Source: Streptomyces cyaneofuscatus
Lineage (GTDB): Bacteria; Actinomycetota; Actinomycetes; Streptomycetales; Streptomycetaceae
Direction: 5' to 3'
DNA: 64,000 bases
Assembly: GCF_000718135.1 (NCBI RefSeq)
Contig: NZ_JOEM01000016.1
Location: 254,234 to 318,233, forward strand
Of the stretch, positions 45,584-50,123 are shown in pieces. The translations under genes and the position numbers were made by a program. How positions within the stretch are numbered: position 1 is the stretch's first letter; the number at the start of each line of letters is the position of its first letter. The notes under the pieces were generated by a model. It had not been told where the DNA came from. It did not search any database and worked only from the letters and a program-made list of their open reading frames with translations.

Positions 45584-47749
45584 TCAGCCGGTCAGGACGA
45601 CGAGCTCCTGGGTCGCCCGGGTCATCGCCACATACCGGTCGACCGCCCCCTCGACGCCCTCCCCGAACGCCTCCGGGCCGACGAGCACCACCAGGTCGAA
45701 TTCGAGGCCCTTCGACAGCTCCGGCGTCAGCGACCGCACGCGGGGCGTCGCCCGGAACGTCGGATCGCCGATGACACACGCGATCCCGTCCGTATGCGCG
45801 TCGAGCCACGCCTCCAGGACCGCATCCCGTTCCGCGGCCGATCCGTGACGGACAGGGCGCCCGCCGGAACGGATCGAGGTCGGCACGTTGGCGTCCGGCA
45901 GCACGGCCCGGATCACCGGCTCGGCCTCCGCCATGACCTCCTCCGGCGTCCGGTAGTTGACGGTCAGGGAGGCCAGCGTCACCCGGTCGAGCCCGACCCG
46001 CTCCAGCCGCTCCCGCCACGGTTCGGTGAACCCGTGCCGGGCCTGGGCACGGTCCCCGACGACAGTGAAGCTCCGGGACGGGCACCGCACCAGCAGCATC
46101 TGCCACTCGGCGTCGGTGAGCTCCTGCGCCTCGTCGACCACGATGTGCGCGAACGGGCCCGCCAGCCGGTCCGGTTCGCTGGCGGTGAAGGCGGCCGGGT
46201 CGACCAGGGTGTCCTTCATGTCCTGGCCGCGCAGCATCACCAGCGCGCCCTCGCTGTCGGCATCGGCGTCGATCAGGGTCTCGTCCGCGAGCAGTGCGTC
46301 GATCACCTGGGCCATGCCCGCGCGTTCGGCGGCCACGGCCGCCTCCTGCCGACGCCTGCGCCGCCACGCCTCCGGGTCACCGACCCGCTGCCGCGCCGCG
46401 TCCAGGAGCGGCAGATCGGAGACCGTCCAGGCCCGCGGGTTCGCGCGCTGCAACAGCCGCACCTCGTCCCGGGTCAGCCAGGGGGCGGCCATGCGCAGGT
46501 ACGCGGGGACCGACCACAGGTCCCCGACGAGCTCGGCCGGATCCAGTAGGGGCCACGCCCGGTCGAAGGCGGCGGCCAGCTCCCGGTCCTGGCCCAGCGC
46601 CTTGCGGACCAGCTCCGGTGCGACCTCCTCACCGTCGTACTTCTCCAGCAGGAGCGTGAGCAGCTCCTCCCGGACCTGGTCGCGTGCCTCGTTGTGTACG
46701 GCGCCGGGCCCGGCGGCCTCGAAGGCCACGGCCCAGTCGGAGGCGGTGAGCCGGAGGTCGGCCCAGGGGGTTGTGACCGTCAGGGATTCCGTGGGCGGCT
46801 CCTCGTAGAACCGGACGGCCGCCTCCACCGCCCGCACCAGCTCCGCCGACGCCTTCAGCCGGGCCACCTCCGGGTCGGCCTCGGGTCCGGCCGTCGCTCC
46901 TTCCTCCACCAGGTCCCGCAGGGTGCAGGTCCTGACGCCCTCCTCGCCGAGGCTCGGCAGCACATCGGCGACGTACCCGAGGTAGGGCCGGGAGGGGCCC
47001 ACGAACAGGACACCGCCCCTCCGCTGGGCGAGGCGCGGGTCCGCGTACAGGAGGTACGCCGAGCGGTGCAGGGCGACGACCGTCTTCCCCGTGCCCGGCC
47101 CGCCGTCCACCACGAGCGCGCCCCGGGAGCTCGCCCGGATGATGGCGTCCTGGTCGGCCTGGATGGTGCCCAGCACGTCCCGCATCCGCTCCGACCGGTT
47201 GGAGCCCAGGCTCGCGATGAACGCGGACTGGTCGTCGAGCGCGGCATGCCCGGCGAAGGCGTCCGGGGCGAACACCTCGTCCCAGTAGTCGCTGATCGAC
47301 CCGCCGGTCCAGCGGTAGCGGCGGCGGCTCGCCAGCCCCATCGGGGTGGCGTGGGTGGCGCCGAAGAACGGCTCGGCGGCGGGGGAGCGCCAGTCGACCA
47401 GCAGCCGGCGGCCCTCGCTGTCGGTGAGGCCGAGCCGGCCGACGTACACGGGTGCGGAGCCGTCCTCGGCGACCATGCGCCCGAGGCACAGGTCGAGCCC
47501 GAAGCGGCGCAGGGTACGCAGACGGGCGGTGAGCCGGTGGATCTCGGCGTCCCGGTCCATCGCCTGCCGTCCCGTGCCGCCGGGCGCCCTTCGCTCGGCG
47601 TCGAGGCGGCCGGTCAGCTCGGCGATCGACGCGTCGAGGGTCCGGGCGATGGACGCGAAATGCCGCTCGTCGTCGGCGATCAACGCCGGGTCGGCCTTGG
47701 GAGAGAGGTGGTCGGGGAGGTGGAAAGCGCTGGTGGGGAGGGGGTTCAC
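45584..47749 (-). CDS. helR: HelR/HelD-like RNA polymerase-recycling ATPase
   Basis: A 721-residue UvrD-like superfamily 1 protein without a UvrD-type DNA repair context. An N-terminal coiled coil (residues 28-80) is followed by Walker A GGPGTGKT at 216-223, VVDEAQELTDAEW (Walker B) and motifs NYRTPEEVM and ELSKGLEFDLVVLVG. This is the architecture of HelD proteins, which enter RNA polymerase and release stalled complexes; the HelR branch displaces rifamycins and gives low-level rifamycin resistance. The call as HelR is supported by the rifamycin-associated-element-like repeat at 47814-47838. GTG 47749 start. Confidence 0.82.
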   Translation of the reverse strand: MNPLPTSAFHLPDHLSPKADPALIADDERHFASIARTLDASIAELTGRLDAERRAPGGTGRQAMDRDAEIHRLTARLRTLRRFGLDLCLGRMVAEDGSAPVYVGRLGLTDSEGRRLLVDWRSPAAEPFFGATHATPMGLASRRRYRWTGGSISDYWDEVFAPDAFAGHAALDDQSAFIASLGSNRSERMRDVLGTIQADQDAIIRASSRGALVVDGGPGTGKTVVALHRSAYLLYADPRLAQRRGGVLFVGPSRPYLGYVADVLPSLGEEGVRTCTLRDLVEEGATAGPEADPEVARLKASAELVRAVEAAVRFYEEPPTESLTVTTPWADLRLTASDWAVAFEAAGPGAVHNEARDQVREELLTLLLEKYDGEEVAPELVRKALGQDRELAAAFDRAWPLLDPAELVGDLWSVPAYLRMAAPWLTRDEVRLLQRANPRAWTVSDLPLLDAARQRVGDPEAWRRRRRQEAAVAAERAGMAQVIDALLADETLIDADADSEGALVMLRGQDMKDTLVDPAAFTASEPDRLAGPFAHIVVDEAQELTDAEWQMLLVRCPSRSFTVVGDRAQARHGFTEPWRERLERVGLDRVTLASLTVNYRTPEEVMAEAEPVIRAVLPDANVPTSIRSGGRPVRHGSAAERDAVLEAWLDAHTDGIACVIGDPTFRATPRVRSLTPELSKGLEFDLVVLVGPEAFGEGVEGAVDRYVAMTRATQELVVLTG

Positions 47750-47813
47750 GGCGTCCGTTCAGTCGTGGAATGTTCGTGGGGCCTGAAGTCAGGCCGTCGA
47801 TTCTGCGGCATAT

Positions 47814-47838
47814 GGGGGGCCTTGCGGCAAGCCCCCCC
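47814..47838. promoter_or_regulatory. Rifamycin-associated-element-like inverted repeat
   Basis: A palindrome with core CTTGC-G-GCAAG (47821-47831) flanked by GGGGGG on the left (47814-47819) and a run of C on the right (47832-47838). It begins 65 bases upstream of the helR start. It matches the arrangement I know for the RAE found upstream of rifamycin-inducible resistance genes (G-run, CTTGC core, C-run). The 47839-47992 gap has no other supported feature. Confidence 0.8.
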
Positions 47839-47992
47839 ATGCGCTATACGTTGAGAGTGGCAAGGAGTGGGTTCACCTCCTGCCGATCCCGCCGCTTCTG
47901 CCAGCCCCCCCCGGCGCTGCACGGACGCCAGGCTCCTCGCGGCGAACCTCCTGCACACCGCGTACACGCCCTTGGATCGCCGCACCTCCCTG

Positions 47993-48032
47993 ATGAGACA
48001 ATCATGTCTCATATGGCTTAAGCTCGTCTCAT
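47993..48032. promoter_or_regulatory. TetR operator: inverted repeat plus third half-site
   Basis: ATGAGAC 47993-47999, six-base spacer, GTCTCAT 48006-48012 form a perfect palindrome; a third copy GTCTCAT lies at 48026-48032 and covers the start codon. The likely binding site of the TetR protein, which would repress itself and the exporter. Confidence 0.75.
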
Positions 48033-48582
48033 GACTCTCGACCGTGAGCAGGTGCTGCGCAGCGCCGCCGCCCTGCTGATCCACAAATCGACCGCCACCA
48101 TGGACGAGGTCGCCAAAGCAGCCGGGATCGGCCGCGCCACCCTCCACCGCCACTTCGCCGGACGCGACGCGCTGGTGAAGGCGCTGGAGGATCTCGGTAT
48201 CCAGGCGTTCGAGGCGGCCCTGGACGCCGCCCGGCTCGACGAAGGCACCGCCGAGGAGGGGCTGCGCCGCCTCATCGCGGCCGTCGAGCCCAGCGCCGGC
48301 CTGCTCTCGTTCCTCGTCACGGAGAACCAGCTCTTCGAGGGCGATCAGGTCCACGAGGGCTGGAACCGGGCCGACGCCCGGGTCTCCGCCTTCTTCCGCC
48401 GCGGCCAGGAACGCGGCGAATTCCGTATCGACCTCACCCCCGCCTGGCTGACCGAGGCCCTCTACGGGCTCATCGGCACCGGGGCCTGGGCCGTCCAGGT
48501 GGGACGGGTCGCCACACAGGACTTCCAGTACATGATCGTCGAGCTGCTGCTCGGCGGAGCCCGCCGGAGCGTGGAGCAGTGA
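48031..48582 (+). CDS. TetR-family transcriptional regulator
   Basis: A 183-residue repressor with an N-terminal helix-turn-helix (STATMDEVAKAAGIGRATLHRHFAGRDALVKAL) and a helical ligand-binding domain. Starts at ATG 48031, inside a half-site of its presumed operator, so the mRNA leader is very short. The stop overlaps the exporter start (GTGA): a self-contained drug-sensing repressor/exporter unit. Confidence 0.92.
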   Translation: MTLDREQVLRSAAALLIHKSTATMDEVAKAAGIGRATLHRHFAGRDALVKALEDLGIQAFEAALDAARLDEGTAEEGLRRLIAAVEPSAGLLSFLVTENQLFEGDQVHEGWNRADARVSAFFRRGQERGEFRIDLTPAWLTEALYGLIGTGAWAVQVGRVATQDFQYMIVELLLGGARRSVEQ

Positions 48583-50123
48583 CCAGCATCGACCAACACC
48601 CGAAGACCACGGACGACGTGCGCCGCCCCGGGCGGTGGATCGCGCTCGCCGTGCTCGTCCTCGCCGTGCTGCTGGTGGCCGTCGACGCGACCGTCCTCGG
48701 CCTCGCCACCCCGTTCCTCAGCGAGGACCTCGCCCCCACCGGCAACCAGCTCCTCTGGATCGGTGACGTCTACTCCTTCGTCATCGCCGGTCTCCTCGTC
48801 TCGATGGGCTCCCTCGGCGACCGCATCGGCCGCAAGAAGCTGCTGCTGATCGGCGCCGTGGCGTTCGGCGGGGTCTCCGTGCTCAACGCGTACGCGACGA
48901 CGCCCGAGATGATGATCGTGGCCCGGGCGCTGCTCGGTGTCGCGGGCGCCACCCTGATGCCGTCCACCCTCGCCCTGATCCGCAACCTCTTCCACGACCC
49001 GCGCGAGCGCAGCCTCGCCATCGGGATCTGGGGCGCCATGGCGTCGGCGGGTGCGGCGGTCGGGCCGGTCGTCGGCGGGTTCCTGCTCGAACACTTCTGG
49101 TGGGGTTCGGTCTTCCTGATCAACCTGCCCGTGATGGCCGTGCTCGTGGTCGTCGGCATCAAGCTGATCCCGGAGTCCAAGAACCCGGCCCCCGGCCCGT
49201 GGGACATGCCCAGCGTCGGGCTCTCCCTGGTCGGCATGATCGGCATCGTGTACGCCATCAAGGAGACGGCCTCGCACGGGCTGGGCTGGGGGCCCGGCGT
49301 GGCGGCCGTGCTCGGCGCCGGTGCGCTCACCTGGTTCGTCCGCAGGCAGCTCCACCTGCCCGCACCCCTGCTGGACATGCGGCTCTTCCACCACCGGGGC
49401 TTCTCCGGCGCCGTCCTCGCCGACCTGCTGACCATCCTCGGCCTGTCGGGCCTGGTCTTCTTCCTCTCCCAGTTCCTGCAACTGGTCCAGGGCCGGGGGC
49501 CGCTGGAGGCGGGCCTCGCCGAACTGCCCGCCGCCATCGGCGCGGTGACCGCCGGTCTGCTGGCCGGATTCGCCGCCCGCCGGTTCTCGGTGCGCTCGGT
49601 CGTGGCGGGCGGACTCGGCGCGGTCGGCCTCGCGCTGGGCACGGTGACCCTCCTCGACCAGCACACCGGCTACCCGCTGCTCGGCTCCATGCTGCTGGTC
49701 GTCGGCGTCGGCGCCGGGTTCTCCTTCACCGTCACCGCCGACGTCATCCTCTCCAGCGTTCCGCAGGAGCAGGCCGGTTCGGCGTCGGCCGTCTCGGAGA
49801 CGGCGTACGAGCTCGGCGCCGCCCTCGGCATCGCCCTGCTCGGCTCCATCGTCACCGGCGTCTACCGGGGCTTCCCGACCCCGGCGGGCATCCCCGCCGA
49901 TGTCGAGTCGGCGGCCCACGAGTCGCTCGGCGGGGCCGTCGAAGCGGCGACCGCCCTGCCCGCCGGCCAGGCGGGACCGCTGGTCTCGGCGGCCCAGGAG
50001 GCGTTCGTCGACGGGATGCGGTCCGCCGCCGGCGTCGGGTCGGCGGTGCTCCTCGCGGCAGCCGTCGCCGCCTGGTTCCTGCTGCGGGGCCAGAAGCTGG
50101 AGGACGGCATCGAGCACCCGTAG
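48579..50123 (+). CDS. DHA2-family MFS exporter
   Basis: A 514-residue proton-driven exporter with 14 predicted helices. Motif A is GSLGDRIGRKKLLLIG; motif C-like GAMASAGAAVGPVVGGFLLEHFWWGSVFLINLP marks drug/H+ antiporters. Related to SmvA/LfrA-type pumps for cationic drugs and dyes, though the substrate here is unknown. Coupled to the preceding TetR gene. Confidence 0.92.
   Translation: MTSIDQHPKTTDDVRRPGRWIALAVLVLAVLLVAVDATVLGLATPFLSEDLAPTGNQLLWIGDVYSFVIAGLLVSMGSLGDRIGRKKLLLIGAVAFGGVSVLNAYATTPEMMIVARALLGVAGATLMPSTLALIRNLFHDPRERSLAIGIWGAMASAGAAVGPVVGGFLLEHFWWGSVFLINLPVMAVLVVVGIKLIPESKNPAPGPWDMPSVGLSLVGMIGIVYAIKETASHGLGWGPGVAAVLGAGALTWFVRRQLHLPAPLLDMRLFHHRGFSGAVLADLLTILGLSGLVFFLSQFLQLVQGRGPLEAGLAELPAAIGAVTAGLLAGFAARRFSVRSVVAGGLGAVGLALGTVTLLDQHTGYPLLGSMLLVVGVGAGFSFTVTADVILSSVPQEQAGSASAVSETAYELGAALGIALLGSIVTGVYRGFPTPAGIPADVESAAHESLGGAVEAATALPAGQAGPLVSAAQEAFVDGMRSAAGVGSAVLLAAAVAAWFLLRGQKLEDGIEHP

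Follow-up and report, generated by a model that had tools for sequence, protein, structure and literature searches.

The stretch of DNA analysed here (the window, 64,000 nucleotides of Streptomyces cyaneofuscatus, contig NZ_JOEM01000016.1) carries on its minus strand a gene, helR, for a 721-residue protein of the HelD/HelR type, preceded by a palindrome that we assign to the rifamycin-associated element (RAE) of rifamycin-resistance genes. As judged from conservation among aligned relatives, this RAE lies in the middle of a conserved unit of ~100 bp, in which one −10-like box faces helR and a second, at the mirror position, belongs to the opposite strand; the RAE thus resembles the shared −35/operator of two back-to-back promoters, which cannot both be occupied. 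The gene and the parts of the unit are listed below, with unit positions counted from the palindrome centre (0) and plus pointing toward the gene.

45584..47749, minus strand: helR, 721 aa, GTG start at 47749; class II HelD/HelR motor ATPase (NCBIfam NF041254, structure-sequence match, motifs).
47800..47805, minus strand: putative −10 of the helR (sense) promoter, CAGAAT, unit +21..+26 (conservation).
47812..47840, no strand assigned: extended palindrome around the RAE, 29 bp, centre 47826 (inverted-repeat search).
47817..47835, minus strand: RAE core, 19 bp, GGGGCTTGCCGCAAGGCCC (inverted repeat; the published RAE is a 19-bp palindrome).
47822..47827, plus strand: putative −35 of the mirror (antisense) promoter, TTGCGG, within the RAE (window sequence).
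47825..47830, minus strand: putative −35 of the helR (sense) promoter, TTGCCG, within the RAE, with a 19-nt spacer to the −10 (conservation; directional variants).
47847..47852, plus strand: putative −10 of the mirror (antisense) promoter, TACGTT, unit −21..−26 (conservation).
47859..47884, plus strand: hairpin, GGCAAGGAG-TGGGTTCAC-CTCC-TGCC, with one bulge and no T-run, where relatives have the conserved antisense terminator-like hairpin; below the score limit.

By its sequence, the window gene encodes HelR. The NCBIfam model NF041254 ('motor_HelR') aligns to residues 9-720 and scores 1257.9 bits, its cut-off being 750; the other HelR model (NF041258) and the HelD models for mycobacteria and for Bacillus all fall far short of their own cut-offs. 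The closest solved structure by sequence is that of Mycobacterium smegmatis HelD (6yxu, E 4e-102), with Bacillus subtilis HelD at E 2.7e-18. The protein possesses the class II HelD motif DWRSP at 119, without the class III insertion, as well as the helicase motifs Walker A GGPGTGKT (216), DEAQEL (539), GDRAQ, NYRTP and KGLEFD (680). The first-pass annotation, made from the letters alone, had called this 721-residue protein HelD/HelR-like, which the model score, the motifs and the structure match bear out. Across 121 genomes of the genus, the NF041254 scores are bimodal, with 81 genomes above the cut-off at 815-1307 bits and the rest at 478 bits or less among the matches listed; since the window protein falls in the upper of these two groups, it belongs to the HelR branch. 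The acidic tip of the HelD primary-channel loop (Glu484-Asp485 in M. smegmatis) is needed for rifamycin release. This E-D tip aligns, with a gap, to D-A-D-S-E-G in the window HelR, an alignment in which residue equivalence is uncertain, and the commonest residues at these places among 79 aligned HelR proteins are D-D-D-G-E-G. The genome has four further HelD-type genes; the stretches fetched around these four paralogues contain no RAE core CTTGCNGCAAG, which rules them out as further RAE genes. In one relative (L106, genome G039), the helR frame is interrupted by a single TAG.

The palindrome reads ATGGGGGGGCTTGCCGCAAGGCCCCCCAT on the minus strand and lies 63-91 nt upstream of the helR GTG, with arms (47812-47825 and 47827-47840) of 14 nt each that are 93% complementary around a 1-nt centre. 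A search of the 64-kb window with GGNCTTGCNGCAAGNCC at up to 2 mismatches, for which 0.57 matches are expected, returned the palindrome alone, with 0 mismatches; in the 7.9-Mb genome, it is likewise the sole exact match, and a backwards control gave none, so that the palindrome noticed earlier ahead of the 721-aa gene is real. The pattern GGGCTTGCNGCAAGNCCC occurs in the genome at one place with 0 mismatches (the window site) and at one place with 1 mismatch (C17:94502, before rph), and once 3 mismatches are allowed, its matches can be put down to noise (54 on each strand vs. 213/236 in the control). The assignment of the palindrome to the RAE, which had also been proposed from the letters, is supported by the published description, i.e., a 19-bp palindrome before a rifamycin-resistance gene, rather than by a letter-by-letter comparison with the consensus, and by the same element at the helR loci of the genus. 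No Rfam match was found in 47600-48100, ruling out a known RNA family as the explanation.

Of the 81 genomes above the cut-off, 78 gave fetched helR loci, the three set aside being the window's own, G017 (gene at a contig end) and G028 (split gene). The RAE lies upstream of helR in 77 of these 78 loci, each time with 0 mismatches where up to 2 were allowed, and the single locus without it has only 205 nt of upstream sequence before the contig end. The two score groups described above speak against the case envisaged in the first-pass annotation, i.e., that the protein belongs to a non-HelR branch of HelD proteins without an RAE. At 29 loci, the RAE stands 0.8-1.7 kb away with another frame in between, which is an intact Rgt-like frame in 25 (recognised by an MRV..YGSRG-type start), a Rox-like frame in 1 and a short or broken frame in 3. 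The locus with the Rox-like frame (L102) encodes a HelR 92% identical to that of the window, and the window helR itself is of the direct type, with no other frame between the RAE and the gene. The short or broken frames (L050, L057 and L098) occupy the place where other loci have an intact Rgt-like gene. Four loci (L052, L072, L077 and L082) have no gene in between, yet an rgt-start-like stretch, GTGCGTGTG.TGTTGTCG, follows the RAE; this stretch might be left over from an rgt gene that was lost, or might be a short leader frame.

When 78 helR rows, including the window and omitting L073, were aligned on the palindrome centre, conservation was seen to extend from about −60 to +60. The same unit is found before other genes. 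From at least 46 exact genus sites that do not precede a fetched helR, 40 were taken, and 37 of them carry the RAE-centred unit (L144, L151 and L153 lack it and were dropped from later counts). Genes that pass their NCBI model cut-off after such sites are rph (L117) and rox (L135), and arr passes after a class-level site (L286); an Rgt-like gene after L124 reaches 643 bits, below the cut-off of 800, and two rox-like frames (L130 and the class-level L183) also stay below theirs. Two class-level genomes have an ABC-transporter ATPase frame behind the RAE site, one of which (L274:1-804, minus strand) passes the DrrA model TIGR01188, while the other (L275:1-774, minus strand) resembles it by eye, so that ABC-transporter genes are a possible RAE target outside the rgt/rph/rox/arr/helR set. 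At class level, exact RAE sites occur in 129 of 296 genomes and 50 of 114 genera, and the class-level rows read (30 + 20) come from other genera. Among mycobacterial/nocardial helD loci (80 kept of 131), 51 have the exact RAE core and three have it with one mismatch.

On the sense strand, CANAAT stands at +21..+26, 19 nt past the TTGC(G/C)G in the RAE, and on the other strand, TANNTT stands at −21..−26, 19 nt past the TTGC hexamer that this strand has within the RAE. The four key bases of these boxes (A+22, T+26, T−22 and A−26) occur together in 209 of 216 rows in total: 77/78 for helR, 37/37 for non-helR, 47/51 for mycobacterial/nocardial rows with an exact core, and 30/30 and 18/20 at class level. 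None of the four positions belonged to the search patterns that yielded the rows. Class-level rows were oriented first by hairpin energy and later by the TATA box; the four-base test, being mirror-symmetric, gives the same result in either orientation. In the non-helR genus and class-level rows, the core and positions ±7 and ±8 were fixed by the search pattern and are invariant there by construction, and the unconstrained tests of conservation are the helR rows (2 mismatches allowed) and, for ±7 and ±8, the mycobacterial/nocardial rows. In the latter, where the search left these positions free, the G/C at ±7 and ±8 is near-invariant (51, 51, 50 and 50 of 51).

The mirrored boxes stand at equal distance from the palindrome, and each strand of the RAE can thus serve as the −35 of one of two promoters. 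The overlap of the RAE with the sense −35 is one of position only (TTGCCG in the RAE and CAGAAT 19 nt on), conserved both genus- and class-wide. It agrees with M. smegmatis, in which the RAE overlaps the −35 of promoter 2 (PMC10719064). Among sites with exact TATAGCGCAC in 199 genus genomes, the core is changed at +1 eleven times in 11 genomes, always from G to A (10 TTGCCA and 1 TTGCGA), and once at −1, a bias of 11/12 with p 0.003 if the sites are independent, although they may share ancestry. The −35 consensus is TTGACA, and the +1 change from G to A shifts the sense hexamer toward it. TATAGC was ruled out as part of a separate sense promoter with a −35 of its own, since no −35 is conserved at the right distance.

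Beyond the mirror −10, an antisense hairpin is conserved that resembles, as far as its letters tell, the intrinsic terminator of a tiny antisense RNA. The test applied was for an inverted repeat on the antisense strand starting at −30..−37, with a score limit and shuffled controls. Such a hairpin is present in 67 of 78 helR rows (5 when shuffled), 37 of 37 non-helR rows (6), 22 of 51 mycobacterial/nocardial rows (4) and 27 of 48 class-level rows (7), two class-level rows near contig ends being omitted; sense-side control hairpins number 6, 2, 6 and 8 in the same groups. The commonest start is −33 (51/67, 28/37, 8/22 and 15/27, respectively), which is seven bases past the mirror −10, i.e., the expected transcript start. 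At least four T occur in the 8 bases after the antisense hairpin in 48/67 helR, 29/37 non-helR, 10/22 mycobacterial/nocardial and 13/27 class-level cases, compared with 0/6, 0/2, 0/6 and 0/8 after the sense-side controls, and the stretch that follows the hairpin in the sense direction (−32..−25) contains at least four T in 4/78, 1/37, 3/51 and 6/48 rows. By a rough frame test, the upstream genes across the 78 helR rows are divergent in 37, tandem in 32 and undecided in 9, and the hairpin occurs with both arrangements (26/32 tandem and 32/37 divergent in helR rows; 18/18 and 12/12 in non-helR rows), with starts at −33 in 18 helR tandem, 25 helR divergent, 11 non-helR tandem and 10 non-helR divergent cases. 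The place of the hairpin is constant, and its stem sequence varies between groups (e.g., L157, L162, L216 and L265). An earlier and looser fold-based test, which shuffles often passed and in which most starts fell at −27, agreed for the genus, and in the class-level rows it showed no enrichment of T on the antisense side (on average 1.33 T after the hairpin and 1.85 A before it). Pairing of the upstream hairpin with the RAE as an alternative fold was rejected, since arms such as GGAAAGGAG/CTCCTTTCC still pair with each other but, by eye, are no longer complementary to the RAE.

The genome contains a second site of this kind. At C17:94502 (locus L033, C17:94488-97208), one core base is changed (CTTGCCACAAG) and the whole surrounding unit is kept, directly before rph and about 70-90 nt upstream of it; the gene that follows is 78% identical to the frame at L117, which passes the rifamycin phosphotransferase model NF041857. 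Among 20 look-alike loci of the genome (some sites on both strands), only the window site and C17:94502 have all four key bases, and the others, which have 0 or 1 of them, were ruled out. A single-query search for Arr in this genome found nothing, one query being weak evidence, and the best match to Rox is only 48% identical. Because a second whole RAE unit precedes rph, the likely rifamycin regulon of this genome comprises at least helR and rph.

We favour, with a probability of about 0.82, the reading that helR is under a complete RAE control unit, as one of at least two RAE genes in the genome (the other being rph). Without rifamycin, the helR promoter would be held down, most likely by a dimeric factor that sits on the RAE dyad and covers both −35s, with possible help from competition by the mirror promoter. 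A low dose of rifamycin would relieve the repression, as the behaviour of Streptomyces venezuelae and Mycobacterium abscessus suggests, so that helR (and rph) would be transcribed; HelR would then enter RNA polymerase and release it both from the drug and from promoter complexes that have stalled, and Rph would inactivate the drug, as expected from their families. For this strain, both the induction of helR and the displacement of rifamycin are inferred from the family. A dimeric factor on the RAE is our leading guess for the rifamycin-sensing agent, since the G/C at ±7 and ±8 is near-invariant though no −35 hexamer needs it. Several observations weigh against this reading. The RAE is asymmetric (centre G 70/C 8 in helR rows and G 34/C 15/T 1 in class rows; at −6 G predominates, and at +6 G or A does, G in the helR rows), which speaks against a simple homodimer operator, and no candidate rifamycin sensor was found. 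The hairpin of the window itself is imperfect (one bulge), lacks a T-run and falls below the score limit, and a consensus scan of the window locus, limited to spacings of 16-18 nt, returned no promoter- or terminator-like site. Furthermore, the two invariant bases by themselves leave the promoter direction unfixed, ANNNT being identical to its reverse complement, and the orientation of the mirror box is accordingly less secure than that of the sense box. Finally, the RAE core is absent from the searched stretch in 26 of the 80 mycobacterial/nocardial helD loci.

The conservation of the mirror −10 and of the terminator-like hairpin would also suit RNA polymerase itself as the sensor, with the mirror and helR promoters competing for the shared RAE −35 and rifamycin shifting the balance without any dedicated factor. 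The 19-nt spacers on both sides, which are like those of Panti-helD and Panti-pps of B. subtilis (PMC12802891), the core changes, of which 11 fall at +1 (all to A) and one at the mirror place, and the precedent of two interfering promoters at M. smegmatis rpoBC (PMC10719064) all lean this way. We nevertheless consider it unlikely: with back-to-back promoters whose −35s overlap, polymerase that the drug has arrested on the mirror promoter should stand in the way of the helR promoter, and the near-invariant ±7 and ±8 would be left without a role in any −35 hexamer. In B. subtilis, moving the promoters within polymerase-clash distance abolished induction (PMC12802891), which lowers the odds further. 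The bolder form of this idea, in which the RAE as shared −35 of two mirror promoters, a tiny hairpin-ended RNA and the polymerase as sensor would make up an independent, class-wide counterpart of the B. subtilis alarm, seems quite unlikely; if true, a polymerase-sensing RAE unit would control helR, rph, rox, rgt, arr and possibly ABC exporters. Conversely, there may be no functional antisense promoter at all, the hairpin then simply terminating a gene next to it and the mirror box arising from the symmetry of the palindrome. A palindromic −35 does yield a mirror −35 for free, the window hairpin has no T-run, and the looser first test saw no antisense T bias at class level; however, the mirror −10 lies outside the palindrome and is conserved nonetheless, the hairpin accompanies tandem and divergent upstream genes alike, and the T-run is on the antisense side (48/67 and 29/37, against 0/6 and 0/2 in the control), and we regard this view as rather unlikely. 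That the RAE acts as RNA, i.e., as the leader hairpin of a transcript from an upstream promoter that controls read-through, appears highly improbable. The palindrome is able to fold as RNA and M. smegmatis promoter 1 starts about 20 bp upstream of the RAE (PMC10719064), but the conserved −10 boxes on both sides suit promoters at the DNA level, the core is exact rather than covarying (0 mismatches in 77/77 helR sites, 2 allowed), and no Rfam model matches at the RAE.

One further question concerns the genes beyond the unit, which are given here together with a repeat in the predicted helR leader.

47780..47795, minus strand: small inverted repeat GGCCTGA-CT-TCAGGCC in the predicted helR leader (inverted-repeat search).
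48031..48582, plus strand: tetR-family gene, a neighbour only (all NCBIfam matches below cut-off).
48579..50123, plus strand: DHA2-type MFS exporter gene, a neighbour only (nearest model LfrA, 470 bits against a cut-off of 825).

The first-pass annotation had placed a TetR/DHA2 exporter unit directly beyond the element; the position holds, and a link with the RAE unit is not supported, as the pair stands beside the RAE in only 4 of the 78 other loci, on which ground it was rejected as part of the unit. It is probably just a neighbour. Just before tetR lies a repeat, ATGAGACA-ATCA-TGTCTCAT, at 47993-48012 on the plus strand (arms 47993-48000 and 48005-48012), which by its place and form is likely the operator of the TetR regulator. 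We also considered whether in this lineage the RAE drives tetR-DHA2 as well, efflux and HelR then forming one rifamycin response, and we regard this as very unlikely. The mirror promoter faces tetR with no intact terminator between them in the window, and the same pair stands beside the RAE in four relatives; against this are the scarcity of that arrangement and the operator-like repeat that tetR has of its own. A gap-free search found the hairpin with a T-run in 0 of 5 tetR loci vs. 47 of 73 others, as if tetR had co-opted the mirror promoter. This is not claimed, because two of the five tetR loci (L083 and L101) do have a stem and T-run on inspection, which the gap-free search missed, and because the tetR genes of the four relatives, 91-92% identical to that of the window, make these loci hardly independent.

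The gene and the RAE are of known kinds. Upstream of rifamycin-resistance genes, the RAE has been described as a 19-bp palindrome (Spanogiannopoulos et al. 2014, as cited in PMC10719064), and S. venezuelae helR (SVEN_6029; Surette et al. 2022) has an RAE upstream and is induced by rifamycin (PMC8655204, PMC10719064). According to PMC10719064, the RAE is required for the rifamycin induction of M. abscessus helD, and deletion of helD/helR raises rifampicin sensitivity in two actinobacteria. The window protein, which passes the NCBI HelR model, is likened to S. venezuelae HelR by description, both being class II HelD/HelR proteins with an RAE; whereas the window RAE lies directly before helR, 25 of the 78 relatives have an Rgt-like frame in between and 1 has a Rox-like frame. 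With HelD/HelR of M. smegmatis and M. abscessus, the window protein shares class II, and the mycobacterial/nocardial relatives often have an RAE with the flanking boxes. However, those proteins have NCBIfam models of their own (NF041465 and NF041258), for both of which the window protein is below the cut-off, and the E-D loop tip of M. smegmatis HelD aligns with a gap to an acidic, Gly-containing stretch of the window branch.

The closest parallel in layout is the dual-promoter alarm at helD/pps of B. subtilis (PMC12802891), with which the RAE unit would share a sense and an antisense promoter, a 19-bp antisense spacer and a helD-type target. There, the antisense RNA is short and terminated, and induction is lost in a rifampicin-resistant rpoB mutant; here, a hairpin with a T-run occurs behind the mirror box in many relatives, though not in the window. 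The two systems differ in geometry, as the B. subtilis promoters are convergent, 39 bp apart and without an RAE, whereas the putative promoters of the RAE unit are best read as back-to-back and sharing a palindromic −35. Convergent, non-overlapping promoters of the B. subtilis type were not found at the RAE, both putative −35s lying in the RAE with the −10 boxes outward. The same 2026 paper describes the sensing of rifamycin via the RAE in actinobacteria as still to be elucidated. The literature searched on the RAE and HelR, to which the main papers on either subject did not belong, makes no mention of mirror promoters at the RAE or of a hairpin on its antisense side. What is new here is the 19-bp RAE as the centre of a conserved unit of ~100 bp, whose mirrored −10-like boxes and antisense terminator-like hairpin go unmentioned in the excerpts of PMC10719064. 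Searches for the RAE gain specificity from it over the palindrome alone, as the four key bases pick out the rph copy with its changed core and reject the other look-alikes examined. The conserved layout of mirror −10 boxes, antisense hairpin and T-run also names single positions that would separate a DNA-binding sensor from polymerase competition.

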